The translations under genes and the position numbers were made by a program. A stretch of DNA of 51,238 nt, taken from positions 1-51,238 of the forward strand of contig JAGKSW010000112.1 of NCBI GenBank assembly GCA_018993265.1, in the 5' to 3' direction. The notes beneath the pieces are model-generated. The model ran no database searches, was not told the DNA's origin, and saw nothing but the letters and a program-made list of their open reading frames with translations. Source of the stretch: Nostoc sp. TH1S01 (GTDB lineage: Bacteria > Cyanobacteriota > Cyanobacteriia > Cyanobacteriales > Nostocaceae). Positions 25,509 to 41,148 of the stretch are shown here, piece after piece (the stretch's first letter is position 1; each line of letters opens with the position of its first letter).

Positions 25509-25519
25509 AGACTCGAAAA

Positions 25520-26875
25520 TTACAACGGCAATTTCACACCTTGAATTGCATAATCTAATAATTCCATTGGGTGCATAACAGAAATATTTTTGCCTTGCAA
25601 TTCTAAATGCTTGGTAATTTGTAAACTACAACCAGGATTAGGAGAAGCAATTAAATTAGCACCAGTATTTAATAAATTCTCTACCTTTTGCTTACCTAAT
25701 TCTTCTGCAACTTCTGGTTGCAAGAGGTTATAAACCCCAGCACTACCACAACACAAAGCTGCGTCTAAAGGTTCTCGTAAAGTCACGCCAGGAATTTGGC
25801 GTAATAATTGACGTGGTTGCAAACTAATTTTTTGTCCATGCAATAAATGACAAGCATCTTGATAAACCACAGTTAAAGGTTGATCTGTAAGTGGTGATAG
25901 TTTAGCTGTTAAGCCAACAGTAGCTAAAAATTCTTGTGCGTCTTTGACTTTAGCTGCAAAATCCTCAGCCTTTTCTCGATACTCTGGATCATCAGCTAAA
26001 ATGTGTCCGTATTCTTTTAAAGTATGTCCACAACCGGCAGCGTTGATAATCACGAAATCGACATCAGTATCAGCGAAACTGTCAATCATTTGCCTTGCTA
26101 AAGCTTTGGCTTGTTCTGTTTGTCCTTGGTGTTCAGGAAGTGCAGCACAGCAACCTTGAGATTTGGGAATTACAACTTCACAACCGTTAGCTGTTAATAC
26201 TCGCACAGTCGCTTCATTCACAGGTGAGAAAAATAACCGTTGCACACATCCCAAAATCATTCCGACTCGATAGCGTTTTGTGCCTTTGGCGGAAATAATA
26301 TCTGGTAAATTATCTTGAAAAGATTTGACAGTAATTTGTGGCAGAATTGATTCCATTGCTGCCAACCGTGGCGATATTTTCTGGAGAATGCCAGTTGACT
26401 GTAATAGTTTAGAAAATCCCAACTTTTGATAAACAAATAATGGCACAAGTAAAATGCGTAAAATGTCTGGGTTGGGAAATAATGCAAATATCAATTGACG
26501 TATAAGCTTATCTGGTAAACTGCGAGAATAATTACGTTCAACTTGATGGCGTGTAGCGGAAATTAATTTGTCGTATTGTACGCCTGAAGGACAAGTTGAA
26601 ACACAAGCAAGACACCCTAAACAACTATCAAAATGTTCGACTGTAGCGGTATTAAGAGCAATATCACCTTCATTAATTGCATCCATGAGATAGATACGTC
26701 CTCTAGGGGAGTCCATCTCTTTACCAATGACTCGATAGCTAGGACAAGTTGAAAGACAAAATCCACAATGTACACAAGTATCAATTAATTTGGGGTCAGG
26801 TGGATGATTACTATCAAAGCCTGGTAAATTTTTTATACTAGCTGTATTGTTAACAGAATTTTCTGAAACTTGCAT
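25520..26875 (-). CDS. glcF: Glycolate dehydrogenase iron-sulfur subunit
   Basis: 451 residues. Two 4Fe-4S motifs lie at the N-terminus: CVHCGFCLSTCP (Cys34, 37, 40, 44) and CLGCLACVSTCP (Cys85, 88, 91, 95). Two cysteine-rich CCG-type domains follow, including GCVQRLFFSPVNEATVRVL with QGCCAALPEHQGQ, and DACHLLHGQK with AALCCGSAGVYN. GlcF passes electrons from glycolate oxidation into the membrane quinone pool and is part of cyanobacterial photorespiratory 2-phosphoglycolate salvage. It follows glcE and the GlcD-like gene on the same strand, separated by heptamer-repeat spacers. The length matches GlcF. Confidence 0.93.
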   Translation of the reverse strand: MQVSENSVNNTASIKNLPGFDSNHPPDPKLIDTCVHCGFCLSTCPSYRVIGKEMDSPRGRIYLMDAINEGDIALNTATVEHFDSCLGCLACVSTCPSGVQYDKLISATRHQVERNYSRSLPDKLIRQLIFALFPNPDILRILLVPLFVYQKLGFSKLLQSTGILQKISPRLAAMESILPQITVKSFQDNLPDIISAKGTKRYRVGMILGCVQRLFFSPVNEATVRVLTANGCEVVIPKSQGCCAALPEHQGQTEQAKALARQMIDSFADTDVDFVIINAAGCGHTLKEYGHILADDPEYREKAEDFAAKVKDAQEFLATVGLTAKLSPLTDQPLTVVYQDACHLLHGQKISLQPRQLLRQIPGVTLREPLDAALCCGSAGVYNLLQPEVAEELGKQKVENLLNTGANLIASPNPGCSLQITKHLELQGKNISVMHPMELLDYAIQGVKLPL

Positions 26876-26890
26876 ATTTCCTCTCTGAGT

Positions 26891-26985
26891 TGAAAGTGCT
26901 GAGTGCTGAGTGCTGAGTAAAAATCCTATTACTTAGTCAAGAGTGAAGAGTCCCTTTCTCATATAAATTGCTGAGTGCTGAGTCA
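26891..26985. repeat. GTGCTGA heptamer repeats between glcF and glcE
   Basis: Two runs of the GTGCTGA unit (about 26894-26919 and 26968-26984) separated by about 45 bases fill most of the 179-base gap between the two genes. Confidence 0.8.
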
Positions 26986-27054
26986 AAATACTAGTCACTC
27001 TTTTATGCTGGGCTATGAAATAAGTTTTATCGGGACTTTCTTGGTAGTAGTTAG

Positions 27055-28335
27055 CTAAATTCCACCTACAAATCGACCCGGACTTAAAATATTTTGGCTA
27101 TCAAACTGTGCTTTAATGCAGCGCATTAAGGGTAAAGCGTTACCTGTGTATCCCCAAACATCAATATTTTGCTTGACTGTTGCAGGTGCAGTTAAAATAG
27201 TTAAGAAACCTTGATGATTTTGAGTGCGATCGCGGATTTTTAAAACTTGATTTTGCTCCTCTAATTGTAGCCAACCCAAACCGCTACTAATATGAATTAA
27301 ACCAATTTTCACTTGATTTAAAATCTCCACAGCCGCACTTGGTAACACTCCTATTTTGCAAGTAATTGCCGACTCTGTGTGAGGAGATTTGATTTGGTTT
27401 TGCAATCTCTGCCATAGATTAGTATCATCGCTATCGGCATATATTGCCCCATTTAAACCCAACTTTGTGCCGACTTCCAAAAGGCGGTTTGATTGTTCTT
27501 TGACACTCTCACTAATACTTTGGAAACGGGCAATTAATCCTAATCCTTGTCCCAAACCTAAGTTAGATACAAGTTGTGCAGATAGTAAGTCAGCTTGGGT
27601 TGGTGTTAACGCCGAACCTCGCAAAGTAGAAGCAGCTTGAGATATGGCCTCTGCTGTACCAGTTAACACCACAGTACCCGCTACTTCTTGCATCGGATAC
27701 ACGCGAAAAGTGACTTGACTAATAATTCCTAATGTGCCGTAAGAACCAGTAAACAACTTCATCAAGTCGTAGCCAGCAACGTTTTTAACCACTCGTCCAC
27801 CAGCTTTGGCAATTTGTCCATCTGCACGTACAAAGGTAATACCAAGTAACTGGTCGCGGACACTTCCATAACGTTGTCGTAGAGAACCTGTATCACCAGT
27901 AGCTACAATACCACCAATAGTTGCCGCATCGGGTGCAGTCGAGTCAAGGGCGAGAAATTGGCGTGATTTTGCCAAAGTTGCTTGTAGATGGGCGAATTTC
28001 ATCCCAGCTTCGACTGTGACAGTTAAATCACCAACCGCATGTTCGATGAGTTGGTTAATTCGTTCTGTACTGACGACAATATCAATACCTTTGGCTAAAC
28101 CACCCCAATTAAGTTTACTACCACTCCCACAAGGCAGGACTCGCCATTGATTTTGATAGGCGGTGGCCATGACTTGAGATAATTGTGTTTGAGTGCGAGG
28201 ATAGACAATACAAGGAGAATTTACAGAAGTTGTCGCCTGTTGAATAGATTTTTGTTGACTGGCTGCGATATTTTCCCAAAGCACAATATTTTCTTCGCCA
28301 ACAATAGATGCAATATCGGTTGCAATACCTTTCAT
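27055..28335 (-). CDS. glcE: Glycolate dehydrogenase FAD-binding subunit GlcE
   Basis: 426 residues with an FAD-binding-4 fold: VYPRTQTQLSQVMATAYQNQ, LPCGSGSKLNWGG (FAD pyrophosphate loop), LDSTAPDAATIGGIVATGDTGS, and GRVVKNVAGYDLMKLFTGSYGTLGIISQ, which is the GlcE signature. The C-terminus SPGRFVGGI is the typical family ending. GlcE associates with GlcD and GlcF in glycolate oxidation. It lies between glcF and the GlcD-like gene in one transcription direction. ATG start. Confidence 0.9.
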   Translation of the reverse strand: MKGIATDIASIVGEENIVLWENIAASQQKSIQQATTSVNSPCIVYPRTQTQLSQVMATAYQNQWRVLPCGSGSKLNWGGLAKGIDIVVSTERINQLIEHAVGDLTVTVEAGMKFAHLQATLAKSRQFLALDSTAPDAATIGGIVATGDTGSLRQRYGSVRDQLLGITFVRADGQIAKAGGRVVKNVAGYDLMKLFTGSYGTLGIISQVTFRVYPMQEVAGTVVLTGTAEAISQAASTLRGSALTPTQADLLSAQLVSNLGLGQGLGLIARFQSISESVKEQSNRLLEVGTKLGLNGAIYADSDDTNLWQRLQNQIKSPHTESAITCKIGVLPSAAVEILNQVKIGLIHISSGLGWLQLEEQNQVLKIRDRTQNHQGFLTILTAPATVKQNIDVWGYTGNALPLMRCIKAQFDSQNILSPGRFVGGI

Positions 28336-28363
28336 TAGTTTATTTTCTCATCATAGATTTCAA

Positions 28364-28435
28364 CTCAGCACTCAGCACTCAGCACTCAGCACTTAGCACT
28401 CAGCACTTAGCACTCAGCACTCAGCACTCAGCACT
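28364..28435. repeat. Ten-unit CTCAGCA heptamer array overlapping a stop codon
   Basis: About ten 7-base units (CTCAGCA, with two CTTAGCA variants) run from the glcE upstream region into the last 22 bases of the GlcD-like gene, whose C-terminal residues VLSAEC and stop are read from it. Confidence 0.9.
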
Positions 28436-29757
28436 TTACTCTTACCAGGATTCATTAACCCATAAGGGTCAACCATTTCTTTAAATTTCAACTGTTCAGG
28501 GTCAATTACTTTTCTGCCACCGTCTTCAATAATATAGGTATGAGGATTGGCAATAAACACACCTTTAGCTTCGTGGTAGTGAATAATTTCATTCAGGCGT
28601 GCTTCGGTGGTGTAACGCACCAGTTGTAAAGCCGCAGGTATAACTCGGCCGTTGACGCGAATAAATTCTAAGTGCATCATCACTTCATCACCGAAATAAT
28701 GATAAAGCTCTTCTACTAGTTCTAAACCTTTGTCGGCGGGGAAGAGACTTTGCAAGTAAGTAATGGAAGTATCAACACTGCGGGCGTGTAAGGTGGTATG
28801 GTTCCAGGTAAATTCAGCTAAATTGAGGCCTTTACCTGCTTCTTGGGCTGGCTTTTGATAGGTAATTTGACCATTATATTGCTGTACCAAACCCGGTAAT
28901 AGTTCTAAACTGGGTTCTGCAACCATTAATAAGGCTGCATGAGTACCATCAGGAATATATTGATGTAAGGCGCTAAAGTATTCTGGTATGGGTGAGGCAA
29001 AGACAGAGATTAATTTTTTGATCATCCCATCGGCGTTACCTAATGACTGGCCAAACTTAGCGGCTGTCATGAAGTCGTTAAAAGTGACAATAACTTCTGC
29101 CCAAGGATAAGCAGTCCCTAAAGGAATTTCGACTTCGGTGATGATGCCGTTAATTCCCCAAGCATGGTTGACTTTCTGCACATCGTCACCACGCAGTTCG
29201 ATGACACGAGGTTCCTCTTCTAAAGTTACCACGCGCAAGGCCAAAAGATTGCCGCGATCGCCCAGTAACCCATACTGTATCGAACCAATACCACCACTCC
29301 CACCACCAACAAACCCCGCAATAGTGGCTGTGCGGTAGGTTGAAGGGGCCATCCGCATTTCCCAGCCACTTCCCTTTGCTTTTTTATCTAAGGCTGCCAA
29401 TTTCACCCCAGCTTGTACCCGCGCTACCCCTGGGTTTATCCAGAGAATTTCCTGCATCTTGGTCATGTCTAAAATTACGCCACCGTGCATCGGTACACAT
29501 TGCCCATAATTGCCGGTTCCCGCACCGCGCACAGTTACAGGTACGCGTAATTTGGCACAAGTAGCTGCTACTTTGATCACTTCTTCTTCATTGGCAGGAC
29601 GTACTACAATATCCCCGACTTTGCCTGCTAATTTGGGTACAAGCACAGGGCTAAAGGTGTGGTAATCCTGGGATAGTTTAGCTACTTGGTTGGGGTCGGT
29701 GATGGTTTCGATATCTGTAAAAGCAGCAGTGAGTGTTTCTAAATTGGTAGTTGCCAT
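28414..29757 (-). CDS. FAD-binding oxidase, GlcD-like
   Basis: 447 residues: FAD-binding-4 domain with VVRPANEEEVIKVAATCAKL, VTVRGAGTGNYGQCVPMHGG (FAD loop), TATIAGFVGGGSGGIGSIQYG and WGINGIITEVEIPLG, then a C-terminal oxidase domain ending in VDPYGLMNPGKS. It opens a likely operon with glcE and glcF, so it may be the catalytic glycolate-oxidising subunit. Its core differs from classical GlcD (about 490 residues, with a GLxYAPDPSSQ-type motif) and may be a distinct cyanobacterial form, so no symbol is given. The final residues come from the heptamer array and replace the native end. Confidence 0.82.
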   Translation of the reverse strand: MATTNLETLTAAFTDIETITDPNQVAKLSQDYHTFSPVLVPKLAGKVGDIVVRPANEEEVIKVAATCAKLRVPVTVRGAGTGNYGQCVPMHGGVILDMTKMQEILWINPGVARVQAGVKLAALDKKAKGSGWEMRMAPSTYRTATIAGFVGGGSGGIGSIQYGLLGDRGNLLALRVVTLEEEPRVIELRGDDVQKVNHAWGINGIITEVEIPLGTAYPWAEVIVTFNDFMTAAKFGQSLGNADGMIKKLISVFASPIPEYFSALHQYIPDGTHAALLMVAEPSLELLPGLVQQYNGQITYQKPAQEAGKGLNLAEFTWNHTTLHARSVDTSITYLQSLFPADKGLELVEELYHYFGDEVMMHLEFIRVNGRVIPAALQLVRYTTEARLNEIIHYHEAKGVFIANPHTYIIEDGGRKVIDPEQLKFKEMVDPYGLMNPGKSKVLSAEC

Positions 29758-29943
29758 AGTCTTTTATTAACGCAGAGTGGCGCGAAGGTTAACGCGGAGG
29801 TACGCTGAGAATTGATCTCTCCACTCCCCTAGTCGCTGCAATAATTTAGTTTCAATGTCATTTATTTAAAATAATTTTCCAAGGATATTCGCGTAAAATT
29901 TTCGGCATATTATGCGATTGTTTATATCCTTTGAAGGTTAATA

Positions 29944-30234
29944 CTAACGAGGTCGATTTTCTCGCCCGTGATAGACACGTAAAATAACAATATCATCCTC
30001 AAGAATAACGTAGTGAATTATAAAACCGTATTTACCAAAAGAAACTAAAAATTTTCGTAGTCCAGCTATTTCATCTACAATTGCACCTCGACGGGGATTC
30101 TGTTGTAAACTCTCGCTTGAAGAGACAATTGCTTGTACTGCGCGGGAAGCTGCATCAGGATTATTAAGTTTGATAAAATCATAATGACGATTTAAGTCAT
30201 CAATTGCACTTTCTGTCCAAACTATCTCGGACAT
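29944..30234 (-). CDS. RelE/ParE family toxin
   Basis: 96 residues. The ParE/RelE pattern is clear: IVWTESAIDDLNRHYDFIKL, PDAASRAVQAIVSSSESLQQ, NPRRGAIV and the C-terminal VILRVYHGRENR. The RVYHGRE ending is typical of ParE-like toxins. RelE members cleave mRNA at the ribosome and ParE members poison gyrase; which applies cannot be told. The ATG lies inside the 3' end of the upstream partner gene with a 13-base overlap, which indicates translational coupling. Confidence 0.88.
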   Translation of the reverse strand: MSEIVWTESAIDDLNRHYDFIKLNNPDAASRAVQAIVSSSESLQQNPRRGAIVDEIAGLRKFLVSFGKYGFIIHYVILEDDIVILRVYHGRENRPR

Positions 30235-30569
30235 TGACGTTCTTCCTCAGTTCCTAAACTGTCTGCCCACTCGCGCACACGGCTATGCGCCACTCCTGAA
30301 CCTGTGCGGCGGTAAGTTTCGAGGGCAGATAGACTCTTTTGAAGCATTTGGGCTTCAGTAACAGGTTGAAAATTTAATGCTGTGTCTATTTCACCTACCT
30401 CAAATGATTCTTGTGGCATTTGAGTAGCTTGATTTACCAGTAACTGCTCAAAATCTGCTAAATCTCCAGATGAACTAGTCAGCCAGGTTAATAGGAGAGT
30501 CTTTACCTGTTCTCCTGGTAATGTTTCAAGATGTTCTAAAATTTGCTGTCTAAGGTTGCTTGCTGTCAT
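30222..30569 (-). CDS. Probable antitoxin partner of the RelE/ParE toxin
   Basis: 115 residues with no DNA-binding motif that can be named. N-terminal residues 1-32 (LRQQILEHLETLPGEQVKTL) look helical. The C-terminus (YRRTGSGVAHSRVREWADSLGTEEE) has the GVxHxxVxxWxxSxGTE pattern seen at the end of several cyanobacterial antitoxin-like proteins and would wrap the toxin. The 13-base overlap with the toxin gene and its upstream order support the pairing. It is longer than a usual RelB/ParD protein (70-90 residues). Confidence 0.65.
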   Translation of the reverse strand: MTASNLRQQILEHLETLPGEQVKTLLLTWLTSSSGDLADFEQLLVNQATQMPQESFEVGEIDTALNFQPVTEAQMLQKSLSALETYRRTGSGVAHSRVREWADSLGTEEERQCPR

Positions 30570-30844
30570 AAGCTTTTAAGTTTTGTAATAGCTCTACTAT
30601 TAAATACGATATTTCTGATTTAACTCTGATCTAATGTTAGCTAAAATAAGAGAATCAGTGAGGTACAAGTAAGAGTAATTAGCCGCCGATAGACGCGGAT
30701 GTAGACGCTTAAGCGGCTTGCCGCAGGCTACGCAGATGAGTTTGTACATTAGCAGACTAGGAGAAGCGATCGCAATTCTCAAGGCTTATAAATATCTCTC
30801 TCCCTTGTCTTTGTTTCATATTTAAATTCAGACTACTGTATATA

Positions 30845-31660
30845 CTAATTTTCATATTTCACGGCGCTTTCATGCCATTTACTTAATATAAAATCTGATA
30901 GATAACTGAGGCTGACAAATATTAATACACCCAAGCCAGTGGTGAGGAATAAGGCGGCAAACATACGCGGAATTTGCAGGTTATAGCTAGAAATCAGAAT
31001 ACGGTAGGCGATGCCGGATTTTGCCCCACCAGTCCCGGCGACAAATTCTGCAACGACAGCACCTATTAAGGCTAAACCACCGCTAATTTTTAACCCGCCT
31101 AGAAAATAAGGCATGGCACTAGGTAAACGCAGATACCAAAGGGTTTGCCAGCGTGAAGCTTTGTAGAGTTGAAAGAGGTTGAGTAAGTTGCGGTCAACGC
31201 TGTTGAGTCCGAGGGTGGTGTTAGAGACGATGGGGAAAAAGGCGACTATCCAGGCACAGACTACAAGGGCGGCGAAGGTGTTGTTTTTGAACCAGAGGAT
31301 GATCAGGGGTGCGATCGCTACAATCGGCGTTGTCTGTAAAATAACTGCATAGGGAAATAAACTTTTTTCTATCCACTTACTTTGCGTAAACAAAATCGCA
31401 ATTAATAAGCCAGAAACGACAGCAGCAATAAAAGCCACGACCGTAATTTGTAACGTAATTAATAACGAAGAAAATAACTCGTTCCAGTCGTTAATTAAAG
31501 TTTTAAATACTACTAAAGGCCCAGGCAAAATATAAGGTGGTAAGTTAGTGAACCGCACCAAAATATCCCATAGCAGTAACACGACCAAACCAACGACAAC
31601 AGGTGCTAAAGCCTCAGCAGAAATCAATTTAGTTTGAGTCTTTCTATCAAAAATCTTCAT
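30845..31660 (-). CDS. ABC transporter permease (SsuC/ThiX-like)
   Basis: 271 residues with about six membrane helices (for example VVVGLVVLLLWDILV) and the binding-protein-dependent permease loop, here AFFPIVSNTTLGLNSVDRNLLNLFQLYKAS followed by LPSAMPYFLGGLKIS, which contacts the ATPase. It belongs to the nitrate/taurine/THI5 importer group. It is the last gene of the TPR, binding protein, ATPase and permease row, with a 102-base gap after the ATPase that contains AATGACA repeats. The substrate is inferred from neighbours to be a pyrimidine or related compound. Confidence 0.9.
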   Translation of the reverse strand: MKIFDRKTQTKLISAEALAPVVVGLVVLLLWDILVRFTNLPPYILPGPLVVFKTLINDWNELFSSLLITLQITVVAFIAAVVSGLLIAILFTQSKWIEKSLFPYAVILQTTPIVAIAPLIILWFKNNTFAALVVCAWIVAFFPIVSNTTLGLNSVDRNLLNLFQLYKASRWQTLWYLRLPSAMPYFLGGLKISGGLALIGAVVAEFVAGTGGAKSGIAYRILISSYNLQIPRMFAALFLTTGLGVLIFVSLSYLSDFILSKWHESAVKYEN

Positions 31661-31762
31661 CGGTAATTATGTAAGTCAAGGGAATAAGCAAAACTAGGTT
31701 ATGAAACATAAACATGTCTAAAAACCTTACCAATGACAAATGACACAGGACAAATGACTACC

Positions 31763-32515
31763 TTAATTTATAGTTTCCGCTAAACAACGGGCAACCTTGC
31801 GGCAATATTCGTTATATATTGGCGATGTCCGAAACTCCTCATCACGGGGATAAGGCACATCAATTTCGATATCTGCTACAACCCGCCCAGGATTTATCCC
31901 CATAACTAAGACTCGATTAGATAAATACACTGCTTCGTAAATATTATGAGTTACAAATACCACAGTCCAGTGATATTGTTGCCACAAATCTAATAAATCG
32001 CTGTTCAGCCGACTACGCGTAATTTCATCTAATGCCCCAAAAGGTTCATCCATTAATAAAATGTTGGGTTGAGTAACTAACGCCCTGGCAATGGAGACGC
32101 GCATTTTCATCCCCCCAGATAATTGCCGGGGATAACTATCTGCAAAATTTGTGAGTCCGACTAATGCTAAGGCTTGCTGGACTAAATTTTGGGCATCTTG
32201 CTTAGGTACTCCCGCCAATTTTAGCGGTAGACGGACATTCTCTCTCACCGTTGCCCAGGGCATCAGGGCGGCATCTTGAAAGACAAACGCTAATTTTCGG
32301 GCTGTTTGAGGTATGCCCCAATTGATGTTACCGGAACTGACTTTACCTAATCCGGCTATTAATCGCAATACTGTACTTTTACCGCATCCCGAAGCACCTA
32401 CTAAGCTGATAAATTGCGCTTCGGGAATCTCTAAGTTTAGGTCTTGCAGGGCAATAGTGCCGTTAGTATAGACCTTGCTAATTTGATTGAGTATAATCGC
32501 CGGATTGTTAATCAT
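31763..32515 (-). CDS. ABC transporter ATP-binding protein (SsuB/ThiZ-like)
   Basis: 250 residues with all ABC ATPase motifs: Walker A GASGCGKST (40-48), Q-loop in LAFVFQDAALMPW, signature LSGGMKMRVSIARAL, Walker B ILLMDEPFGALDE and the switch His in VFVTHNIYEA. The type is that of nitrate/sulfonate/taurine/THI5 importers. Its start codon overlaps the end of the binding-protein gene by 4 bases, so the two are co-translated. It drives import through the adjacent permease. Confidence 0.93.
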   Translation of the reverse strand: MINNPAIILNQISKVYTNGTIALQDLNLEIPEAQFISLVGASGCGKSTVLRLIAGLGKVSSGNINWGIPQTARKLAFVFQDAALMPWATVRENVRLPLKLAGVPKQDAQNLVQQALALVGLTNFADSYPRQLSGGMKMRVSIARALVTQPNILLMDEPFGALDEITRSRLNSDLLDLWQQYHWTVVFVTHNIYEAVYLSNRVLVMGINPGRVVADIEIDVPYPRDEEFRTSPIYNEYCRKVARCLAETIN

Positions 32516-33579
32516 GCAGACTTGTAATAGTCTATGCCTTTATTGACGAATTGCAAGGTAAAGGCATCTTTGTAGTTAACATTGGATTTGTAAACCCCAG
32601 CTGTTACCATGCTATCGTAGAGTGCCTTCCAGCGTTCCTCACTCATTGACCCAATACCTTGTTTTTCGGCATTACCAGAAGTAATAATCCCATATTCTTT
32701 GAGTTTTTGAATGCCGTAAGCTAGTTGGTCATCGGTCATTTCGGGGTTATCTTTTTTGATGAGTTGATTTGCTGGTTGGGGATTTTCCAGGTAGCTATAC
32801 CAACCTTTAATAGAAGCGTCAACAAATCGCTGGACTAAATCGGGATTTTTTTCTACTAGTTCTTTTTTGGTTTCAATAGTTGTGGCGTAGGTAGAGTAAC
32901 CGTAATCTGCTAGTAAAAAGACTGTTGGTTTAAACCCGCCTTGTTTTTCAATGGCGTAAGGTTCTGAGGTGATGTAACCTTGCTGTGCTGAGGTTTTATC
33001 TACCAGGAAGGGGGCGGGGTTAAAGTTATAGGGGCGTTTTTGGTTGTCGGTAAAACCATACTTAACTTTGAGAACTGGCCAATATGTGACGTTTGCTGCT
33101 GCTGAGATATAAATTGGTTTGCCTTTGAGGTCGGCAAGGGTTTGAATTGCTGGGTTGGGATGGGCTATCAGACATTGCGGGTCTTTTTGGAAGATGGCCG
33201 CGACGGTAATTTTGGGGATTCCTTGGGCAATGGCGTTAATGGCATCAATGCCATACCCCATAAAAAAGTCAACTGTACCCCCTAGTAACAACTGAGTGCC
33301 GCTTGGTACTTGTGGGCCACCCATTCTAATGGTGACATCTAGACCGTGCTTTTGATAAATACCAGTGGCGATCGCTTGGTAAAATCCGCCATGTTCTGCT
33401 TGTGCGTACCAGTTTGTCCCAAAGCTGACTTTATCTAACTGTGAACTTGAATTTGCTGGTTGGTTACTGTTGGTACAAGCAGCAAGCAAGCTGCTACCCA
33501 TACAGATGGAACCATACTGAATAAACTGGCGGCGACTAAAGCGATGAATCACTGTTGTTGCGGGTGGTAACGGATTCAT
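32512..33579 (-). CDS. NMT1/THI5-like ABC substrate-binding lipoprotein
   Basis: 355 residues. The N-terminus has a twin-arginine motif (SRRQFI, Arg16-Arg17) followed by a lipobox LLAAC (Cys35), suggesting Tat export and lipid anchoring. The mature domain fits NMT1/THI5: VSFGTNWYAQAEHGGFYQAI, GIYQKHGLDVTIRMGGPQVP, LLGGTVDFFMGYGIDAIN and LADLKGKPIYIS. Such proteins bind pyrimidine precursors, riboflavin-type or related ligands. Next to URC1/URC4/upp, a uracil- or pyrimidine-type ligand is plausible, but this is inferred from position only. It follows the TPR gene by 30 bases. Confidence 0.9.
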   Translation of the reverse strand: MNPLPPATTVIHRFSRRQFIQYGSICMGSSLLAACTNSNQPANSSSQLDKVSFGTNWYAQAEHGGFYQAIATGIYQKHGLDVTIRMGGPQVPSGTQLLLGGTVDFFMGYGIDAINAIAQGIPKITVAAIFQKDPQCLIAHPNPAIQTLADLKGKPIYISAAANVTYWPVLKVKYGFTDNQKRPYNFNPAPFLVDKTSAQQGYITSEPYAIEKQGGFKPTVFLLADYGYSTYATTIETKKELVEKNPDLVQRFVDASIKGWYSYLENPQPANQLIKKDNPEMTDDQLAYGIQKLKEYGIITSGNAEKQGIGSMSEERWKALYDSMVTAGVYKSNVNYKDAFTLQFVNKGIDYYKSA

Positions 33580-33609
33580 AAAACCAAAGAATGTAATCAG
33601 ACCGATTTT

Positions 33610-34080
33610 TTAACTGAGTCTGAGTGTACATTCTAAAATCAGTTTTTGATTTACTAAAGAATAAGGTTGAATTGCTAAAGCACGTTTAAAGGCTTTTATT
33701 GCATCAACATACTGACCAATGGCGGCATAACATAAGCCCATACCATGTAGTGCGCCAAAATGCACCGGATTAATTTGAATCACCATCTGACAGTCTGCCA
33801 GAGATTCTTTATATTTACCGGCACTGTAGTACAAAAAAGCGCGACGATTCCAGGCTTCGGCAAAATCAGGCTGTTCTTGAATCAGTTTAGTTAACAGTGA
33901 TTCTGCTTCCGTAGTTTTACCTGCATCTAGCAGTTTTTGACTTTGGTCGATTTTTTCCAGACCATGAATTCCCTTTTGCTGAAACCAGATCCGCCACAGT
34001 TTCTTAGTCGCTTTTTCCCGGACAGAAGCGTTAGGGTTCTTCAAATCTTCAAGTAAGGAATTAATAGATAAAGAATCCAT
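33610..34080 (-). CDS. TPR-repeat protein
   Basis: 156 residues. Residues 1-50 are helical (SINSLLEDLKNPNASVREKATKKL, HEAT-like). From about 45 there are three tetratricopeptide repeats: QKLLDAGKTTEAESLLTKLI, AEAWNRRAFLYYSAGKYKES and ALHGMGLCYAAIGQYVDAIK, with the usual W, G/Y, A and P positions. It should be a cytoplasmic scaffold with no catalytic motif. It begins the ABC importer row and is transcribed away from URC1, so it may share control with that system. ATG start. Confidence 0.85.
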   Translation of the reverse strand: MDSLSINSLLEDLKNPNASVREKATKKLWRIWFQQKGIHGLEKIDQSQKLLDAGKTTEAESLLTKLIQEQPDFAEAWNRRAFLYYSAGKYKESLADCQMVIQINPVHFGALHGMGLCYAAIGQYVDAIKAFKRALAIQPYSLVNQKLILECTLRLS

Positions 34081-34319
34081 GAATTTGAGAGATTTCGAGA
34101 TTAGTGTTTTTACCTTATTAATAACTTTCGCACAAAATTATCCTCTCAGTGACATTTAATGCCATCTTTAAATTTCTTCCCTATTACTATGAATAAATAG
34201 CGAATTTTGTGTTAGTAATTGTATTAACCAATACTGACAAATACGAAACTCTACATAATAGAGTTGTAAACAATTAGTCATTAAGAAATCGCATATTAAA
34301 AACAGAAAACTTACTACAG

Positions 34320-34334
34320 GTAGTTGACAACTAC
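34320..34334 (+). promoter_or_regulatory. Candidate operator upstream of URC1
   Basis: GTAGTTGACAACTAC is a perfect 15-base palindrome 38 bases before the URC1 start, in the 292-base divergent spacer shared with the TPR-ABC row. It overlaps a TTGACA hexamer that resembles a -35 box, so bound protein could block transcription. A looser relative (GAGTTGTAAACAATT) lies at about 34261. No regulator gene is adjacent. Confidence 0.35.
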
Positions 34335-34372
34335 TTAGTGACTAATAATTCATAAAAACATTACATAAACTC

Positions 34373-35638
34373 ATGACTATGCCCAAGCCAAATAGTGTGT
34401 CCCGGCATATTGTTTTAACATCACATCCAAGTCGTTTTGGCCCCAAGCCAATACCTATTAACTGGGGCGGAAGTGAACCGATGAAACGCGGCCCTGTGAT
34501 TGCGACGTTGACTAATCAAGCACATCGTAATGTGATAGGGACTCATTCAGGTGGTTATGCAATTTATCGCGCTTTAGCGGTGGCAAGTGGCGCTTTACAA
34601 ACAGACCACCGCGCTGATTTAACTAATACTTCCCCGATTGAGCAGATAGGCCCCCATCCAAGTTGGGCTGACCCTGATAAAATTGTCTCACTCGATCCCT
34701 TGGGAGCGATCGCACCAGAAGTTTTTTCTGCGTATTTACAACAGGGTTACGATATCCGCCCGACAATTGCTATCACCAAGGCGCATATTAATATGCCAGA
34801 ACTGCAAGACGCTGTAGCAAAAGGACGTTTGCAGGTGGATGGACAAATTATGAAAACTGGCGGTGATTTGGTTGTTACCAAAGCAGCCATAGAACCTGTG
34901 TGGTATTTACCAGGCGTTGCTAAACGTTTTGGTATTACTGAAGGAGATTTGCGCCGCGCCTTGTTTGAACAAACTGGCGGAATGTTCCCAGAACTGGTAA
35001 CACGTTCTGACTTGGAAGTATTTTTACCGCCCATTGGAGGTTTAACTGTATATATTGTGGGTGATATCTCCGCAATTACCGACCCGAATAAACCTGTGGC
35101 TGTGCGGGTACATGATGAGTGTAATGGTTCTGATGTCTTTGGTTCAGATATTTGTACCTGTCGTCCTTATTTAGTCCACGGCATTGAGGTATGTGTCCAA
35201 ACTGCCCAGGAAGGTGGAGTGGGGATTATTGTCTACTGTCGCAAAGAAGGCCGGGCTTTGGGCGAGGTGACGAAGTTCTTAGTATACAACGCCCGGAAGC
35301 GTCAGGAAGGAGGCGATCGCGCGGATGCCTATTTTGCCCGTACAGAATGCGTCGCAGGTGTTCAAGATATGCGCTTTCAAGAACTCATGCCCGATGTGTT
35401 ACATTGGCTGGGGATTACGCGCATTGACCGGATGGTGTCGATGAGTAATATGAAATTCAACGCCATTACTCAGTCAGGTATTGAAATTGTTGAACGCATC
35501 CCCATTCCTGAAGATTTGATTCCTCAAGATGCGCGGGTGGAAATTGAAGCGAAGAAGGCTGCGGGTTATTACACTACGGGGGATGTGTTAAATACAGATG
35601 GTTTGGCGGAGGTGAAGGGACGTTCTTTGGAAGTGTGA
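34373..35638 (+). CDS. URC1, GTP cyclohydrolase II-like protein of uracil catabolism
   Basis: 421 residues, a distinct paralogue of RibA. The C-terminal half carries the GTP-cyclohydrolase II core: RVHDECNGSDVFGSDICTCRP with likely Zn ligands Cys250, Cys261 and Cys263, IIVYCRKEGRALGEVTKF (versus REGRGIGL in RibA) and ITQSGIEIVERIPI. The N-terminal 220 residues (PINWGGSEPMKRGPVIATLT, HPSWADPDKIVSLDP) are characteristic of the URC1 group and absent from RibA; no ribB-type synthase domain is seen. In the yeast URC pathway Urc1p is required to degrade uracil after its conversion to UMP. Clustering with DUF1688 and upp supports this reading over riboflavin synthesis. Terminal residues LEV and the stop lie in a heptamer repeat. 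Confidence 0.85.
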   Translation: MTMPKPNSVSRHIVLTSHPSRFGPKPIPINWGGSEPMKRGPVIATLTNQAHRNVIGTHSGGYAIYRALAVASGALQTDHRADLTNTSPIEQIGPHPSWADPDKIVSLDPLGAIAPEVFSAYLQQGYDIRPTIAITKAHINMPELQDAVAKGRLQVDGQIMKTGGDLVVTKAAIEPVWYLPGVAKRFGITEGDLRRALFEQTGGMFPELVTRSDLEVFLPPIGGLTVYIVGDISAITDPNKPVAVRVHDECNGSDVFGSDICTCRPYLVHGIEVCVQTAQEGGVGIIVYCRKEGRALGEVTKFLVYNARKRQEGGDRADAYFARTECVAGVQDMRFQELMPDVLHWLGITRIDRMVSMSNMKFNAITQSGIEIVERIPIPEDLIPQDARVEIEAKKAAGYYTTGDVLNTDGLAEVKGRSLEV

Positions 35639-35717
35639 AGTATGAAGTCTGAAGTCTGAAGGATTATTGAAACCCGCGCAGGCGGGTTTTGTCTGTGTAG
35701 CTGCGACTTCAGTCGCC
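35631..35717. repeat. Repeat-filled spacer between URC1 and URC4
   Basis: GAAGT(A/C)T heptamers overlap the URC1 stop. Next comes a two-hairpin element: AACCCGC, GCAG loop, GCGGGTT (35671-35688), then GCGACT, TC, AGTCGC (35703-35716). The first hairpin followed by TTTTG could terminate URC1 transcripts, although its form suggests an interspersed repeat rather than a dedicated terminator. Confidence 0.7.
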
Positions 35718-35749
35718 TGCTACGTTATGTGTGTGAGGTGAGGTGAAGA

Positions 35750-37012
35750 GTGGAAATACGTAGACGCGCCAGCGGCTTCCCGGAGGGTACCGCAGAGGCG
35801 CAGAGTTCACAGAGAGAAATTGAGTATCTTCGTTCACCCAGGGCGATAAGAGAAAGGTGTGGGCAAATTTTTGCGTTGGTGAATGAGGGAAAGTCGCGTT
35901 ACTTTACTTATGATTTGTCGCGGTTGGAAAGAGTGGCAGATTATGTTATTGAGGTGATGCGGGGTGAGTATCCAGATTTAAATATTCCCTTTCATAGTCG
36001 TTGGCGACATTTTGAAGCGCAGGGTATACCGCGTTTGGCAAAGTTAGATAATTTGTTAGCGGGACTAACGCCTTTACAACAAGCCATTGCAAAGTGTGAT
36101 TTGGCAATTGTGAGTGTGTTGTTAGATGCAGGGGCGGGGGAGAGTTGGCGTTATCATGAACAGTCAACGGGCTTGAGTTTAGGACGTTCTGAAGGGTTGG
36201 CTATTGCCAGCTTGGAGATGTTTTGTGAAGGGGCGTTTTCAGTGTCAGGTTTGCCCCAAGTGGATGCTTTAAAATTACTCAGGTTAACTGAGGCAGAATT
36301 AGCAAGTGGGTTTCAGGTCAGTGTAGAAAATCCATTGGTGGGAATTAGTGGGCGATCGCAATTATTGCAGAGATTGGGGCGAGTGGTAATTGCTTTCCCT
36401 CATTTGTTTGGTGACGAAAACCCGCGTCCAGGAAATTTAGTTAATTATCTTGTGAGTAAATCGCAAAATGGACAGTTAGCCGCGACAACGGTATTAAGTG
36501 CTGTACTTGAAGGGTTGAGTGATATTTGGCCGGGAAGATTAACCATTGCTGGCGTTAATCTTGGTGATGTCTGGCAACATTCTGCTATTAGTGATGATGG
36601 TTTAGTACCGTTTCACAAACTTTCCCAATGGTTGACATATTCTTTATTAGAACCATTACAAGCACTAGGTTTAATTATTACTGATTTAGATGCCCTGACA
36701 GGATTACCTGAATATCGTAATGGTGGTTTATGTCTCGATTTAGGATTAATTAATCTGAAAGACCCAAATATTTTGCATTCATCTCATTCGGTAGCATCAG
36801 AATTAATCATTGAATGGCGGGCTTTAACTGTAATATTGTTAGATGAAATCGCTGCAACCATCCGCGAAAAGTTAGGCATAAGTGTTATAGAACTACCTTT
36901 AGTGAAAATTCTCCAAGGCGGAACCTGGACAGCCGGACGCAAAATTGCCGCCCAACTCAGGAAAGGTGGTCAACCCCCTATCCAAATTGACAGTGATGGG
37001 ACAGTATTTTAA
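35750..37012 (+). CDS. URC4, DUF1688 family uracil-catabolism protein
   Basis: 420 residues from GTG at 35750. From about residue 26 the sequence matches DUF1688: LRSPRAIRERCGQIFALVNE, SRWRHFEAQGIPRLAKL, LDAGAGESWRYHEQSTGLSL, RSEGLAIASLEMFCEGAFSV and the C-terminal LVKILQGGTWTAGRKIAAQLRKGG. The founding member is URC4 of yeast, which is needed for uracil degradation but has no assigned reaction. Residues 4-20 (RRRASGFPEGTAEAQSS) come from an interspersed repeat. No ATG precedes the conserved part, so the GTG, with GAGGTGAAG upstream, is the only good start. It lies between URC1 and upp in one direction. Confidence 0.85.
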   Translation: MEIRRRASGFPEGTAEAQSSQREIEYLRSPRAIRERCGQIFALVNEGKSRYFTYDLSRLERVADYVIEVMRGEYPDLNIPFHSRWRHFEAQGIPRLAKLDNLLAGLTPLQQAIAKCDLAIVSVLLDAGAGESWRYHEQSTGLSLGRSEGLAIASLEMFCEGAFSVSGLPQVDALKLLRLTEAELASGFQVSVENPLVGISGRSQLLQRLGRVVIAFPHLFGDENPRPGNLVNYLVSKSQNGQLAATTVLSAVLEGLSDIWPGRLTIAGVNLGDVWQHSAISDDGLVPFHKLSQWLTYSLLEPLQALGLIITDLDALTGLPEYRNGGLCLDLGLINLKDPNILHSSHSVASELIIEWRALTVILLDEIAATIREKLGISVIELPLVKILQGGTWTAGRKIAAQLRKGGQPPIQIDSDGTVF

Positions 37013-37090
37013 TTTTAATTGTCCTTTGTCCTTTGTGGAAATAACCAATGACCAATGACAAATACAGCAGTTTCGATATTCGTGAAGTAC

Positions 37091-37120
37091 TGTAGAGACG
37101 TTACATGTAACGTCTCTACA
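37091..37120. repeat. Perfect 30-base palindrome
   Basis: TGTAGAGACGTTACA (37091-37105) is followed directly by its exact reverse complement to 37120, with no spacer. It lies in the URC4-upp spacer between two runs of AATGAC(C/A) heptamers. It resembles the GTAGAGACGTT-type palindromes known as interspersed repeats in Nostoc genomes. Confidence 0.85.
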
Positions 37121-37216
37121 TGGTTTTAGGTTTTACGCTTGTACCTTATGTACCCAAAATATGCTGTAACTAATAACTAATGACCAATGACCAATGACTA
37201 ATAACTAATAACAAAA

Positions 37217-37852
37217 ATGCAAAATCAAGTTACCGTTATTGACCATCCCTTAATTCAACATAAACTTACTTTGATGCGGAAAGCTGAAACTAGCACGACG
37301 AAATTTCGCAATCTCCTCAAAGAAATTAGTCTGTTGTTAGGCTATGAAGTAACGCGCAATTTAACTCTAAAATATGAAGAGATTAAAACACCCCTCGCCC
37401 CAATGAATGCACCAGTGCTTGCACCAGATAAAAAGTTGGTGTTGGTTTCTATCATGCGGGCTGGACAAGGAATTTTAGATGGAATGTTAGAGTTAATTCC
37501 TTCTGCACGCGTTGGACATATTGGTTTATACCGCGACCCGAAAACATTAATTCCCGTCGAATATTATTTCAAAGTTCCCCATGATGTTGAACAGCGGGAC
37601 ATGATTATTGTTGACCCAATGTTAGCCACGGGAAATTCTGCTGTTGCGGCTGTAGAAAGGTTGAAATCTACTAACCCTTTATCAATCAGGTTTGTTTGCT
37701 TACTAGCAGCACCAGAAGGGTTACAACATTTCTGTGCAGTTCATCCTGACGTACAAATTTACACTGCTGCTATTGATGAGTATTTGGATGAACATGGTTA
37801 TATCATACCTGGCTTGGGAGATGCAGGCGATCGCTTATTTGGTACAAAATAA
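37217..37852 (+). CDS. upp: Uracil phosphoribosyltransferase
   Basis: 211 residues, normal for bacterial UPRT. It makes UMP from uracil and PRPP. The PRPP-binding loop is [14 protein letters not shown] (129-142), the GKYL-like region is [14 protein letters not shown] and the uracil-binding end is [13 protein letters not shown]. Salvage is the usual role. Here it follows URC1 and URC4, and in the URC pathway UPRT supplies the UMP from which degradation starts, so it may serve both purposes. The 204-base gap from URC4 contains repeats and the perfect palindrome. Confidence 0.95.
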
Positions 37853-38781
37853 GTAAATACCTGCATAAAACTACATTTTTTAGGGAAGTAAAAAGCTGAA
37901 AAAATCTAATTTTTGCTTCCTTTCTAGCTTTCTACTTATATTTTTTAGCTTCTCTAAATCTGTCTTTAGGCAGAGAACAGGTAATAAGTTTATTTACTAT
38001 TGTTTTGTCTAAAGGCTAAATTGCATATTGACTTGGAACAGCATCTATCTATTCTCCTATTCGCTAAGTCATGTGTAGAAATGTTATGAAGAGAAATAAC
38101 AAAATATTAGATTGTTTACAAGTAGATTACAGAGAAACTCAGTAACGTAATTCAGCATCATAACTTCACAGCATTTTGATAATTTAAGGGTATTTTTTGA
38201 TATTTGCTTGATTTGAAGGTAAATTGGCATTTTTCCAGAGTGTGAGTATTCCTCCTTTGTAAAGACGTTTTTTAAATAGCAACGTTATCAAATCCTTTAC
38301 GAGCTGCTATGACTGAGGCGAGTTGGCTAATTTTGCAGACATTATTGCTATAAGTAACAAGTTTTGTCAATACTTTTTGAATTATAGACATTTTCAAAAA
38401 AAAAATCAAAATAAGCTGCTTTAGTTTATCAAATACCGTGGATTTTGTGAATAAAAAACTAAAACAAGAAAACTTTTTTTTGATTCTCTTCACTGTCGGC
38501 TCTAAAAACTCAGTATTACGCTTGGCATGACTTGTTTTTCAGTGATAATGGCTAAGATAATTGTGTATCTATAAGTTTTTTGTTATTTAAAATGGTCAAC
38601 TTCTTTTGGTAAAATCAAACCAAAAAAAATATAATTTAATCCGGCTTGATTGTTGAGAGATAATGATATATAAAATATGGATAGATATTATGTAAAATAA
38701 ACCAATAAATTCTATTCTTTTCAAAAAGAATACTGCACAAATTAGACTGCTAGAGAATACATATACATATTGCCTGAAATA
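37853..38781. other. AT-rich intergenic region, no supported gene
   Basis: About 930 bases, strongly AT-rich in the second half, with runs such as AAAAAAAAAATC near 38397 and TTTTTTTTGATTC near 38476. A 73-residue minus-strand frame (38272-38493) is Lys/Phe/Leu-rich and looks like composition bias. Partly complementary stretches near 37880-37960 may form a weak terminator for upp. No known element was recognised. Confidence 0.5.
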
Positions 38782-39186
38782 ATGTCATACCCAACTATTG
38801 GACAACTTGAACGAGAAATTGCACAGCGGATCAGTGCTTTATATTATGAAAAACTAGGGCAGCGTCCTAGCCAAGTTGTTTGTCATTTTTTTGATACAGA
38901 ATTAGTCATTTCTTTAGAAAAATCTGCTACCCAAGTTGAGTTAACACTGATATCTGGGGGGTATGAAAATTTAGCAGAGCAAGTCCGCTTATTTTTAGAC
39001 AAAATTATTAGGATTAAACTTCAAGATTTGATTGAAGAAATCATTGGCAAGCCCATACTCGACCTGATGAGCAATACAAATTTAGCAACAGGTCGGACTG
39101 GAATAATTGTAGTTTTACAACAGTTACCAGAAGTGCGAAATCCTGAATCTATCCCGAAAGCAAACTTGAAGAATTTAACGGAGTGA
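38782..39186 (+). CDS. DUF2294 family protein
   Basis: 134 residues from the ATG at 38782 (MSYPTIGQLEREIAQRISAL). The motifs YYEKLGQRPSQVVCHFFDTE, RLFLDKIIRIKLQDLIEEIIG and GIIVVLQQLPEVRN are those of DUF2294 (YbcI-like) proteins. It is a small soluble alpha/beta protein of unknown function. In cyanobacteria the family is often found in several copies. The last 38 bases overlap the 3' end of the convergent response-regulator gene. An upstream TTG at 38770 would add four residues. Confidence 0.82.
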   Translation: MSYPTIGQLEREIAQRISALYYEKLGQRPSQVVCHFFDTELVISLEKSATQVELTLISGGYENLAEQVRLFLDKIIRIKLQDLIEEIIGKPILDLMSNTNLATGRTGIIVVLQQLPEVRNPESIPKANLKNLTE

Positions 39187-39559
39187 AATGACGAGACACA
39201 AGTAAGCCTAATTTACTCAAATCATAGGGTTTGGTAAGATAGCCTTCAGTACTTGTTAAAAATAGGCGTTCGGAGTTTTTTTCTAGATACCAAGGGATAA
39301 CTGCAATAATAGGAATTCTAGCAGTTTTTTTCTCTCGCTTCAGGTAATCAATAGCTTGACCAGCACTAATATCAGAAATCATCATATCTAAGATGATTAA
39401 ATCAGGTTTATGCGTTTGTGCTAATATCAAAGCTTTGATTCCTTGTTTGGCACAAATACAAGAATAATTTAATGATTTGAGATGATAATTTAGCAGTTCT
39501 AAATTATATAAATTTTCTTCGACAACTAATATTAGTGGCTGTCCATTCATAAACAACAT
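39149..39559 (-). CDS. Single-domain response regulator receiver protein, partly degenerate
   Basis: 136 residues that form one REC domain with no output domain. The phosphoacceptor is probably Asp58 in LIILDMMISD, and the conserved Lys110 is in YLTKPYD. The N-terminal acidic pair is EE (14-15) rather than DD. The switch Thr/Ser after strand 4 is missing: the sequence is IIAVIPW where ALTA is usual. It may signal weakly or act by protein binding. Its histidine kinase is not nearby. AAAGG precedes the first ATG. It overlaps the convergent DUF2294 gene by 38 bases. Confidence 0.85.
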   Translation of the reverse strand: MLFMNGQPLILVVEENLYNLELLNYHLKSLNYSCICAKQGIKALILAQTHKPDLIILDMMISDISAGQAIDYLKREKKTARIPIIAVIPWYLEKNSERLFLTSTEGYLTKPYDLSKLGLLVSRHFTPLNSSSLLSG

Positions 39560-39609
39560 GTCACCTTTAAATTGAAGACTACCTACCCAAATGCTGAATT
39601 TTCATTCCA

Positions 39610-39773
39610 AGAATGACCTCGCTTTTAGCGGGGTCACGTTCTCTGGAAAATATTTGATGTTTACGAGGTTATCTTCACGCGGCTATGTGCGGCTTGAAAT
39701 GGACTAGCTCGTGCATGACTCACTAGGTTGATTGTCTATGCTGAAGTTAAGGGTAGACAATGACAAGCTAGTG
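39610..39773. other. Intergenic segment with two strong inverted repeats
   Basis: First, TGACCTCGCT, TTT, AGCGGGGTCA (39614-39636) forms a 10-bp stem with one G-T pair, extended by AGAA/TTCT. Second, CACTAGGTTGATTGTCTA (39721-39738) pairs with 39754-39773 (TAGACAATGACAAGCTAGTG), 17 of 18 bases apart from a two-base bulge, around a 15-base loop. The segment lies between the permease and response-regulator genes. It could be a structured RNA, a terminator with leader, or hairpin ends of a lost mobile element. Confidence 0.45.
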
Positions 39774-39871
39774 GCACTATCAAGCAAAAATCATGATTAA
39801 GAGTGTACCCTGCGTCCAGGGTTCTATGCAACTATAGTAAGTATCAATTTTTCTAAAGATTATTATAGAAT

Positions 39872-40981
39872 TTATTCTATCCCACGATTTTCTGGATAAT
39901 AAGTAACACCCAAAACCTTTGGAGGTGAAGCTTTACCAGCTAATCCTAACAATGCAAACAAAGCGATCGCATAAGGTAACATAACTAAAAACTGGTAAGG
40001 AATATTCGCACCCAAAGCTTGAATACGTAACTGTAAAGCTTCTGTCGCGCCAAACAGTAAACAAGCCAAAGCACTACCTATAGGATGCCATCTCCCAAAA
40101 ATTAAAGCAGCGATCGCAATGGCATCAAAGCCATAACCAGGAGAAACTTGTTCAAATAAACGATATTTCAACCCCATCACTTCAGTTGCACCCGCTAACC
40201 CAGCTAAACCACCAGCTAACGCCATAACTAACATAATGGTACGTTCAACCGACATACGGGCATAGCGAGCAGCAATCGGGTTTAATCCTACGGCGGTAAT
40301 TTGGTATCCTAATGGCGATCGCCCTAACAAAATCCATAATATAAATGCTGCCATTAACGCCAAAATAATTCCAGCATGGGCGAGACTCCCCGATAAAATA
40401 ATTGGTAACTGAGCAGACTTGGCAATTAATGGTGAATAAGGGCTAGGTGCGGCTGGTGCTTTTAAAGGATTCTGCACAAGGTAGCTAACTAAATTCATGG
40501 CAATATAATTCAGTAGCAAGGTTGTGATAACTTCATTCACTCCCCGCACAGCTTTCAAATAACCAGGTATCCATCCCCAAACAGCACCAAAAACAAATCC
40601 TGCTAACAAAGCCAAAGGAATATGAATGATAGCTGGTAATTCTTGCACATATAGCCCAATTAAAGCACTTCCCAATGCACCAAGATAAATTTGTCCTTCG
40701 CCACCGATATTAAATTGACCAGCCTTTAATGCTACTAAGACACCTAAACTGATGAATAATAGCGGTGTCATTTTGGTGAGGGTGTTACCAAAGCCAAAGT
40801 AAGTTGAAAGAGATTCTTGAAATAATGCCGTGTATGCGGTGATAGGGTTTGCGCCAGCAAAAATAATGAGGATAGCACCAACAACGAGGGCCGAGACAAT
40901 GGCTGCGACGGGCGGTGCTACAGCTATTAGCAGTGATAGGATTGGTAAAAATCTAGGATGAATCCAATTAATTGATTTCAT
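39872..40981 (-). CDS. ABC permease of the nucleoside/simple-sugar type
   Basis: 369 residues with about nine to ten membrane segments, of the branched-type permease family (BPD_transp_2) seen in nucleoside importers such as NupP/YufP. Marks: ALKAGQFNIGGEGQIYLGALG, VRGVNEVITTLLLNYIAMNL, GLNPIAARYARM and GYGFDAIAIAALIFGRWHPIGS. It would form one half of an inner-membrane channel with a second permease, an ATPase and a BMP-type binding protein, none of which is next to it on this side. An adenosine-deaminase-like gene lies 2 kb away, so a purine nucleoside substrate is plausible. ATG start. Confidence 0.88.
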   Translation of the reverse strand: MKSINWIHPRFLPILSLLIAVAPPVAAIVSALVVGAILIIFAGANPITAYTALFQESLSTYFGFGNTLTKMTPLLFISLGVLVALKAGQFNIGGEGQIYLGALGSALIGLYVQELPAIIHIPLALLAGFVFGAVWGWIPGYLKAVRGVNEVITTLLLNYIAMNLVSYLVQNPLKAPAAPSPYSPLIAKSAQLPIILSGSLAHAGIILALMAAFILWILLGRSPLGYQITAVGLNPIAARYARMSVERTIMLVMALAGGLAGLAGATEVMGLKYRLFEQVSPGYGFDAIAIAALIFGRWHPIGSALACLLFGATEALQLRIQALGANIPYQFLVMLPYAIALFALLGLAGKASPPKVLGVTYYPENRGIE

Positions 40982-41148
40982 TTATCTGGTAGTGCATTAG
41001 TAGGCGCTTCAAATATTTTTTCGTGACCTGACCCTTAACTGTTGTCTAAATATTTATTTAGTGGTAGGTTTGAATTCCCTACTAATTAATTCTGACCCTT
41101 CGACAAGCTCAGGGCATCGCTCCTGAATTCTGAGTTCTGAATTCTTCT

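Follow-up and report, generated by a model that had tools for sequence, protein, structure and literature searches.

We analyzed a stretch of 51,238 nucleotides from Nostoc sp. TH1S01 (contig JAGKSW010000112.1, positions 1 to 51,238 of the forward strand; hereafter the window), which carries in one row three genes of the uracil catabolism (URC) type: URC1, URC4 and a uracil phosphoribosyltransferase (UPRT). The locus is probably a bacterial URC operon drawing nitrogen from scavenged pyrimidines, with a divergently transcribed importer and an NtcA-type site between the two directions. The enzymes are of a known kind; the new and testable parts are the conserved NtcA-type site, the link to a deaminase and the loose partnership with the importer. 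A check of the open reading frames (ORFs) confirmed all seven genes in positions 30845-37852, and the features of the locus are the following.

34373-35638, + strand: URC1, 421 aa; NF005536/PRK07198 at 768 bits (cut-off 403); GTP_CH_N and GTP_cyclohydro2 domains
35750-37012, + strand: URC4 (DUF1688); Pfam DUF1688 at 509.6 bits, domain from about 35825
37217-37852, + strand: UPRT, URC-linked; TIGR01091 above cut-off
34081-34372, no strand: divergent spacer common to the TPR gene and URC1, 292 bp
34221-34234, no strand: NtcA-type site GTA-N8-TAC, inside the divergent spacer and present in 28 of 30 homologous spacers
33610-34080, - strand: TPR protein; Pfam match, syntenic
32512-33579, - strand: NMT1/THI5-type substrate-binding protein (SBP) of an ATP-binding cassette (ABC) importer; NMT1 PF09084 at 101.6 bits (cut-off 20.5)
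31763-32515, - strand: ABC importer ATPase; Pfam family match, 4-bp overlap with the SBP gene
30845-31660, - strand: ABC importer permease; Pfam family match
28414-29757, - strand: FAD_binding_4 oxidoreductase; recurs near the importer, 44% identity to its Rhizobium counterpart
39872-40981, - strand: BMP-type importer remnant; a single permease ORF fusing the start of one permease with the end of its neighbor

A preliminary description of this DNA had placed URC1, URC4 and UPRT in one row, with a TPR gene and a complete importer read from the shared spacer in the other direction, and both arrangements were borne out (34373-37852 on the + strand for the row). Its assignment of the row to the core of URC-type uracil catabolism is supported by the family matches of the three proteins: Pfam scores lay well over the cut-offs for the N-terminal half of URC1, URC4, UPRT, SBP, ATPase and permease, as did NCBIfam scores for URC1 and UPRT. 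It had named the right genes but drawn the locus too narrowly, omitting the FAD oxidoreductase and the second-importer remnant. Of its label "THI5/SsuA-type" for the importer the NMT1/THI5 half holds, but the SsuA half does not (TIGR01728, 47.4 against 163.5 bits). The start of URC4 is doubtful, as in the GTG-initiated ORF the DUF1688 match starts only at residue 26. By eye, positions 35750-35825 resemble a dispersed repeat, and the next in-frame start, a TTG at 35876, already lies within the domain. The genome of the window (G000, 7.65 Mb) holds one DUF1688 gene.

Grouping of the 34373 protein with true RibA had been named as evidence that would refute this assignment, and the profile comparison shows no such grouping: with RibA/RibBA models, whose cut-offs are at least 148 bits, URC1 scores 48-67 (61 against 206 in one RibA comparison), and a separate RibA scores above cut-off elsewhere in the genome (G000:C245). 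An identity of URC1 as the riboflavin enzyme RibA is ruled out by these two results. The cysteines noted earlier were found at residues 250, 261 and 263, where a pairwise alignment sets them against cysteines of E. coli RibA; opposite the RibA stretch DERD, which carries catalytic residues, the same alignment has QDMR in URC1, beside a gap. A full-length URC1 homologue has a solved structure (7eev, 7ej3), labelled merely "GTP cyclohydrolase II", and a literature search found no paper naming these structures or 6v42/6v43. For URC4, no solved DUF1688 relative scored convincingly in a profile search of the structure database (best E 0.024). Because the genome holds both the separate RibA and a second UPRT (G000:C57), the evidence suggests that the locus copies of URC1 and UPRT are dedicated to the pathway.

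The distribution of the row was followed in the best 80 loci (66 cyanobacterial, 14 non-cyanobacterial) from a scan that found at least 581 URC1 relatives, among which the closest named relative of the URC1 gene was that of Nostoc sp. LEGE 06077 (96%), and in 386 cyanobacterial genomes, 43 of them from the family of the window. DUF1688 was present in 33 of the 386 genomes and URC1 in 31 (30 above its cut-off). At up to 7 kb from URC1, 49 of the 66 cyanobacterial loci had URC4 and 39 had UPRT, some of these loci ending at contig edges. The order URC1-URC4-UPRT was found again in cyanobacteria, Myxococcus and other bacteria. Among 16 plasmid records with URC1, five were opened: those of Azospirillum, Gordonia and Pseudoroseomonas carry URC1, a "URC4/urg3 family protein" and upp in a row, the Rhizobium leguminosarum record has URC1 at 53% identity with no URC4 annotated beside it, and the URC1 region of the Cupriavidus record is unannotated. 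The URC gene core in bacteria is thus already recognized, as the NCBI product name attests. Literature searches covering few subscription journals listed among their matches no publication on URC in cyanobacteria.

The account of the Lachancea kluyveri pathway in PMC7530994 describes the roles of URC1, URC4 and URC6 and a ribosylurea intermediate; the pathway yields 3-hydroxypropionate and ribosylurea, on which URC4 acts. In fission yeast, uracil strongly induces three clustered URC homologues, as recorded in PMC2174524. By analogy, the order of reactions in Nostoc would be as follows. UPRT would convert uracil to uridine monophosphate (UMP), the reaction established for its family; URC1, with its GTP-cyclohydrolase-II fold, would open the pyrimidine ring of UMP as in yeast; URC4, again as in yeast, would break the ribosylurea-type product to give urea; and urease, whose alpha subunit gene is present elsewhere in the genome, would release ammonia. 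The divergent NMT1-type importer would take up a nitrogen heterocycle resembling a pyrimidine, such as uracil, cytosine or a related compound, and NtcA would regulate at least one of the two directions through the conserved GTAN8TAC. The fate of the three-carbon product is hinted at outside cyanobacteria, where URC1 is immediately preceded, on its own strand, by a gene of the (methyl)malonate-semialdehyde dehydrogenase family (CoA-acylating) in 11 of 14 loci (L151, L153, L160, L162, L164, L165, L167, L171, L172, L175 and L176); the one member scanned, from L175, matches TIGR01722 above cut-off. Such an enzyme would fit the conversion of a three-carbon product to acetyl-CoA.

The divergent spacer contains GTATTAACCAATAC at 34221-34234, which agrees with the NtcA consensus GTAN8TAC as given in PMC3898017. 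Of 30 TPR/URC1 spacers, 28 contained the word (27 of 29 when only distinct loci are counted), where shuffled sequences would give 2.1, although the spacers are homologous and hence not 30 independent events; control spacings were found in 3 (N9) and 6 (N10) of them. Of 157 other gaps of comparable length from these loci, 13 held GTAN8TAC (p 4e-21 if spacers and gaps are all counted as independent). Across an alignment of 29 spacers with a median identity of 56%, the TGTA and AATAC parts of the site make up 9 of 14 columns conserved at 90% or more, and the region of the expected -10 box has no strong conservation by eye. These comparisons of sequence argue for a predicted NtcA control of the divergent spacer. 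The side on which it would act is less clear-cut: among 15 TPR upstream regions without an adjacent intact URC1, 4 hold a site of the same form, 3 hold other GTAN8TAC words and 8 hold none. The site could control the TPR gene and the importer, URC, or both directions. The TPR gene itself, within 7 kb of URC1 in 23 of the 66 cyanobacterial loci, is retained where URC is lost and the SBP is broken or partial (L038, L041, L042 and L043); it persists without URC and without an intact importer and was therefore ruled out as a part of the system.

An intact SBP orthologue, of at least 57% identity, was present in 24 of the 386 genomes. URC1, URC4 and an intact SBP occurred together in 13 genomes against 1.9 expected (Fisher p 5.6e-10), and outside the family of the window in 10 against 1.2 expected, p-values that ignore shared ancestry and genome size. 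In all ten of the latter the SBP is not beside URC, by contig or by distance. Okeania SBPs (L133, L134) from another clade of the SBP tree stand divergent to URC1. In five genomes of the window's family (G278, G352, G167, G376 and G125) the SBP is broken or partial and no URC1 or URC4 match was found at the thresholds used, apart from a URC1 fragment retained in G278 (L031), so that URC and SBP look as if they had been lost together. Overall, the importer is an optional, loose partner of URC, in a link that holds as far as co-occurrence goes. The phrase "its own importer" in the preliminary description had captured an association above chance but was too strong for a complete trio that stands near URC1 in so few loci.

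The importer has a second set of partners. Of 358 plasmid records matching the SBP three were opened, all from Rhizobium, and in each of them a deaminase follows the importer, as it does in L060, L062, L063 and L065. The same deaminase family stands divergent to URC1 in seven Microcoleus-type loci (URC1 is broken in one of them, L096). Its two scanned members match NCBIfam NF005759, "cytosine deaminase", at 671 and 690 bits against 403. Orthologues, counted at 50% identity or more with fragments included, were present in 52 of the 386 genomes, in 20 of the 31 URC genomes and in 12 of the 24 SBP genomes; none was found in the genome of the window at E 1e-30. This linkage of one deaminase both to URC and to the importer points to pyrimidines. 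In the SBP tree, the deaminase-linked SBP of L060 lies within a 15-row clade of URC-linked SBPs. The FAD oxidoreductase is found within 7 kb of URC1 in 12 of the 66 cyanobacterial loci. In the window (25520-29757), L097 and L038 it is followed by another FAD_binding_4 gene and then by an Fe-S/CCG gene, which are GlcE-like and GlcF-like by domain content and do not adjoin the oxidoreductase in the other mapped loci.

Clues to the substrate come from the SBP. Its closest solved relatives are 4nmy, the formylaminopyrimidine binder 3ix1 and THI5/THI13 (4h6d), with profile E-values from 1e-14 to 4e-6. AlphaFold models were of low confidence (mean pLDDT 35 for the SBP and 46 for the FAD oxidoreductase) and were left unused. 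Uracil or a pyrimidine is a plausible substrate, and we lean slightly toward an NMT1 system that imports a pyrimidine-like base. Import of thiamine under a thiamine pyrophosphate (TPP) riboswitch was considered and rejected: no Rfam family reaches its gathering score in positions 25000-45000.

Several observations weigh against a nitrogen-scavenging operon with importer and NtcA-type site. On the side of the enzymes, URC1 and URC4 lie far apart in the genome in G011 and G177, and G000 has no orthologue of the L175 three-carbon dehydrogenase (best 31%; malonate-semialdehyde reductase was not searched for). As to the site, the whole window holds 14 GTAN8TAC words; other cyanobacterial URC1 upstream regions have it in 1 of 56 cases, so it is clade-specific; and a site of the same form is kept before the TPR gene in L038, L041, L054 and L056, all from genomes without URC1, so it may serve the TPR/importer side alone. 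Others concern the importer. SBP sequence lies within 7 kb of URC1 in 14 of the 66 cyanobacterial loci, 8 of them with an open frame of at least 330 aa; at the same distance we counted an ATPase in 5, a permease in 6 and the complete trio in 5. Broken SBPs stand beside intact URC in L098, L099 and L104. The co-occurrence outside the family would have p = 0.005 with only 80 comparable genomes and 0.06 with 60, and the excess inside the family is not significant (3 of 43 against 1.1 expected, p 0.07). Finally, 11 of the 24 intact-SBP genomes, 4 of them in the window's family, lack URC.

These points feed the strongest alternative, in which URC and the importer are functionally separate neighbors that have, in Nostocales, no more than a nitrogen-controlled spacer in common, and the importer, deaminase and FAD oxidoreductase form a nitrogen-heterocycle module of their own whose substrate is not uracil but, e.g., a thiamine-type pyrimidine or a creatinine-like compound. 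The three Rhizobium plasmids, which also carry creatininase and RidA genes, and the loci L060 and L062 do show the order importer-deaminase-FAD oxidoreductase without adjacent URC; together with the SBP genomes devoid of URC and the thiamine-type pyrimidine proteins among the nearest solved SBP relatives, this speaks for separation. The deaminase of L062 adds to it. Its alignment with E. coli cytosine deaminase reads PLDI where the latter has PQEG, so that a Leu takes the place of a Gln that presumably contacts cytosine. Importers in many genomes without URC, beside unrelated pathways, had been foreseen as contrary evidence; the first half was found, but several partners are nitrogen-heterocycle enzymes. 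Those in L033, L034 and L036 are of other kinds (in L033 an aldehyde dehydrogenase and flavodoxin/flavin-reductase proteins). Against separation stand the strong and mostly unlinked co-occurrence of SBP and URC, the presence of the same deaminase family divergent to URC1 in the Microcoleus-type loci, its NCBIfam name obtained above cut-off and the lack of an Rfam match, hence of a TPP riboswitch, around the locus. On balance we regard this alternative as unlikely.

A further alternative is that URC1-URC4-UPRT mainly detoxifies or recycles internal pyrimidine nucleotides, as from RNA turnover, and that the importer serves something else. It gains from the 52 of 66 cyanobacterial URC1 loci that have no NMT1-type SBP sequence within 7 kb, and from the state of a second importer in the window. 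Several Nostocales loci have, on the far side of UPRT, genes directed towards URC for an importer of BMP/PnrA type (a binding protein, an ATPase and two permeases); a bmp permease is found within 10 kb in 14 of the 66 cyanobacterial loci, and the binding protein of L038 matches Pfam Bmp. The permease ORF of the window matches one L097 permease over residues 1 to about 280 and its neighbor over the remainder, which by sequence comparison marks it as an internal-deletion remnant, and a genome search found no orthologue of the L038 binding protein in G000. With the BMP-type importer reduced to one fused permease and no binding-protein orthologue, the locus may be left, in this strain, with the NMT1 system as its sole complete importer. 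Internal recycling is at odds with the recurrence of two importer types beside URC and with the Azospirillum plasmid, where URC1-URC4-upp-BMP-ATPase-permease-permease-amidohydrolase follow one another on one strand, and we consider it improbable. The last account, in which the 34373 protein would be the GTP cyclohydrolase II of riboflavin synthesis and its neighbors would be there by chance, can cite the GTP_cyclohydro2 Pfam domain and aligned cysteines common to URC1 and RibA, but is extremely improbable given scores far below the RibA cut-offs, a match to PRK07198 spanning the full length, the separate RibA that already contradicts it and a gene order recurring in cyanobacteria, Myxococcus, Azospirillum and Gordonia.

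Other genes in and around URC loci were recorded. An adenosine-deaminase family gene (PF00962, 43062-44105) lies near the BMP permease remnant, and its relatives (cluster c35) are found a few kb from URC1 in L138, L152, L156, L157 and L158. A ureidoglycolate-lyase-like gene adjoins URC1 or UPRT in varied arrangements in L070, L076, L077, L078 and L130 (the L076 protein matches PF04115 at 43 bits); it occurs in 42 of the 43 genomes of the window's family regardless of URC and so was rejected as an unspecific partner. In Microcoleus/Tychonema-type loci, a guanylate-cyclase-domain gene (PF00211 in the member scanned, from L044) lies 3' of URC1, before URC4 where the contig holds both; the loci are L080, L081, L089, L093, L096, L141, L144, L146, L148, L149, L166 and L170, with URC1 broken in L096 and with L093 and L170 being one contig. 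A cluster c48 gene upstream of URC1 in Leptolyngbya-type loci is glycogen-synthase-like by eye and was taken to be unrelated. Positions 29944-30569, which lie between the permease and the FAD oxidoreductase, encode a ParE-type toxin (PF05016); its partner ORF, upstream, matches no Pfam family.

On the wider scale we advance, tentatively and at less than even confidence, that heterocyst-forming cyanobacteria placed URC and the NMT1 importer in an NtcA-run nitrogen-starvation regulon under one divergent promoter, and that the importer family they have in common with rhizobia is an unnamed class of uracil/cytosine ABC importers. If true, the URC pathway would be tied to global nitrogen control in photosynthetic bacteria, these organisms would offer a tractable host for working out the chemistry of URC1 and URC4, and an uncharacterized importer family of cyanobacteria and rhizobia would gain a candidate substrate class.

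Among known systems, the nearest in enzymes are URC1/URC4/URC6 of Lachancea kluyveri and urg1-3 of Schizosaccharomyces pombe, which, as presented in PMC7530994 and PMC2174524, comprise the same three core families as the window (GTP-cyclohydrolase-II-like, DUF1688 and UPRT) and are clustered in fission yeast. Unlike the yeast systems, the window has a bacterial row, a divergent NMT1 importer with a TPR gene and an NtcA-type site. The urea step also differs, with a urea amidolyase (URC3/URC5) in yeast and a urease in the Nostoc genome, where urea amidolyase was not searched for. Plasmid p4 of Azospirillum brasilense shares the URC core and likewise joins it to an importer and a cytosine-deaminase-type amidohydrolase; its importer is BMP-type and on the same strand, whereas the window has an NMT1-type importer and a BMP remnant only, and its amidohydrolase belongs to another subfamily (29% identity to the L062 deaminase). 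The Rhizobium plasmid operon of NMT1 importer, cytosine deaminase and FAD oxidoreductase resembles the other half of the locus (52-55% identity for the SBP, 51-53% for ATPase and permease and 44% for the FAD oxidoreductase), but instead of URC genes it adjoins those for creatininase and RidA, to which two of the three opened records add urea carboxylase. ThiY/THI5 proteins (3ix1, 4h6d) are of the same NMT1 fold family as the window SBP and, with 4nmy, its nearest solved relatives, though distant ones. The main text of PMC3898017 on the Anabaena NtcA regulon contains neither the word uracil nor cyclohydrolase; its consensus GTAN8TAC is the one that the predicted site in the window spacer carries.

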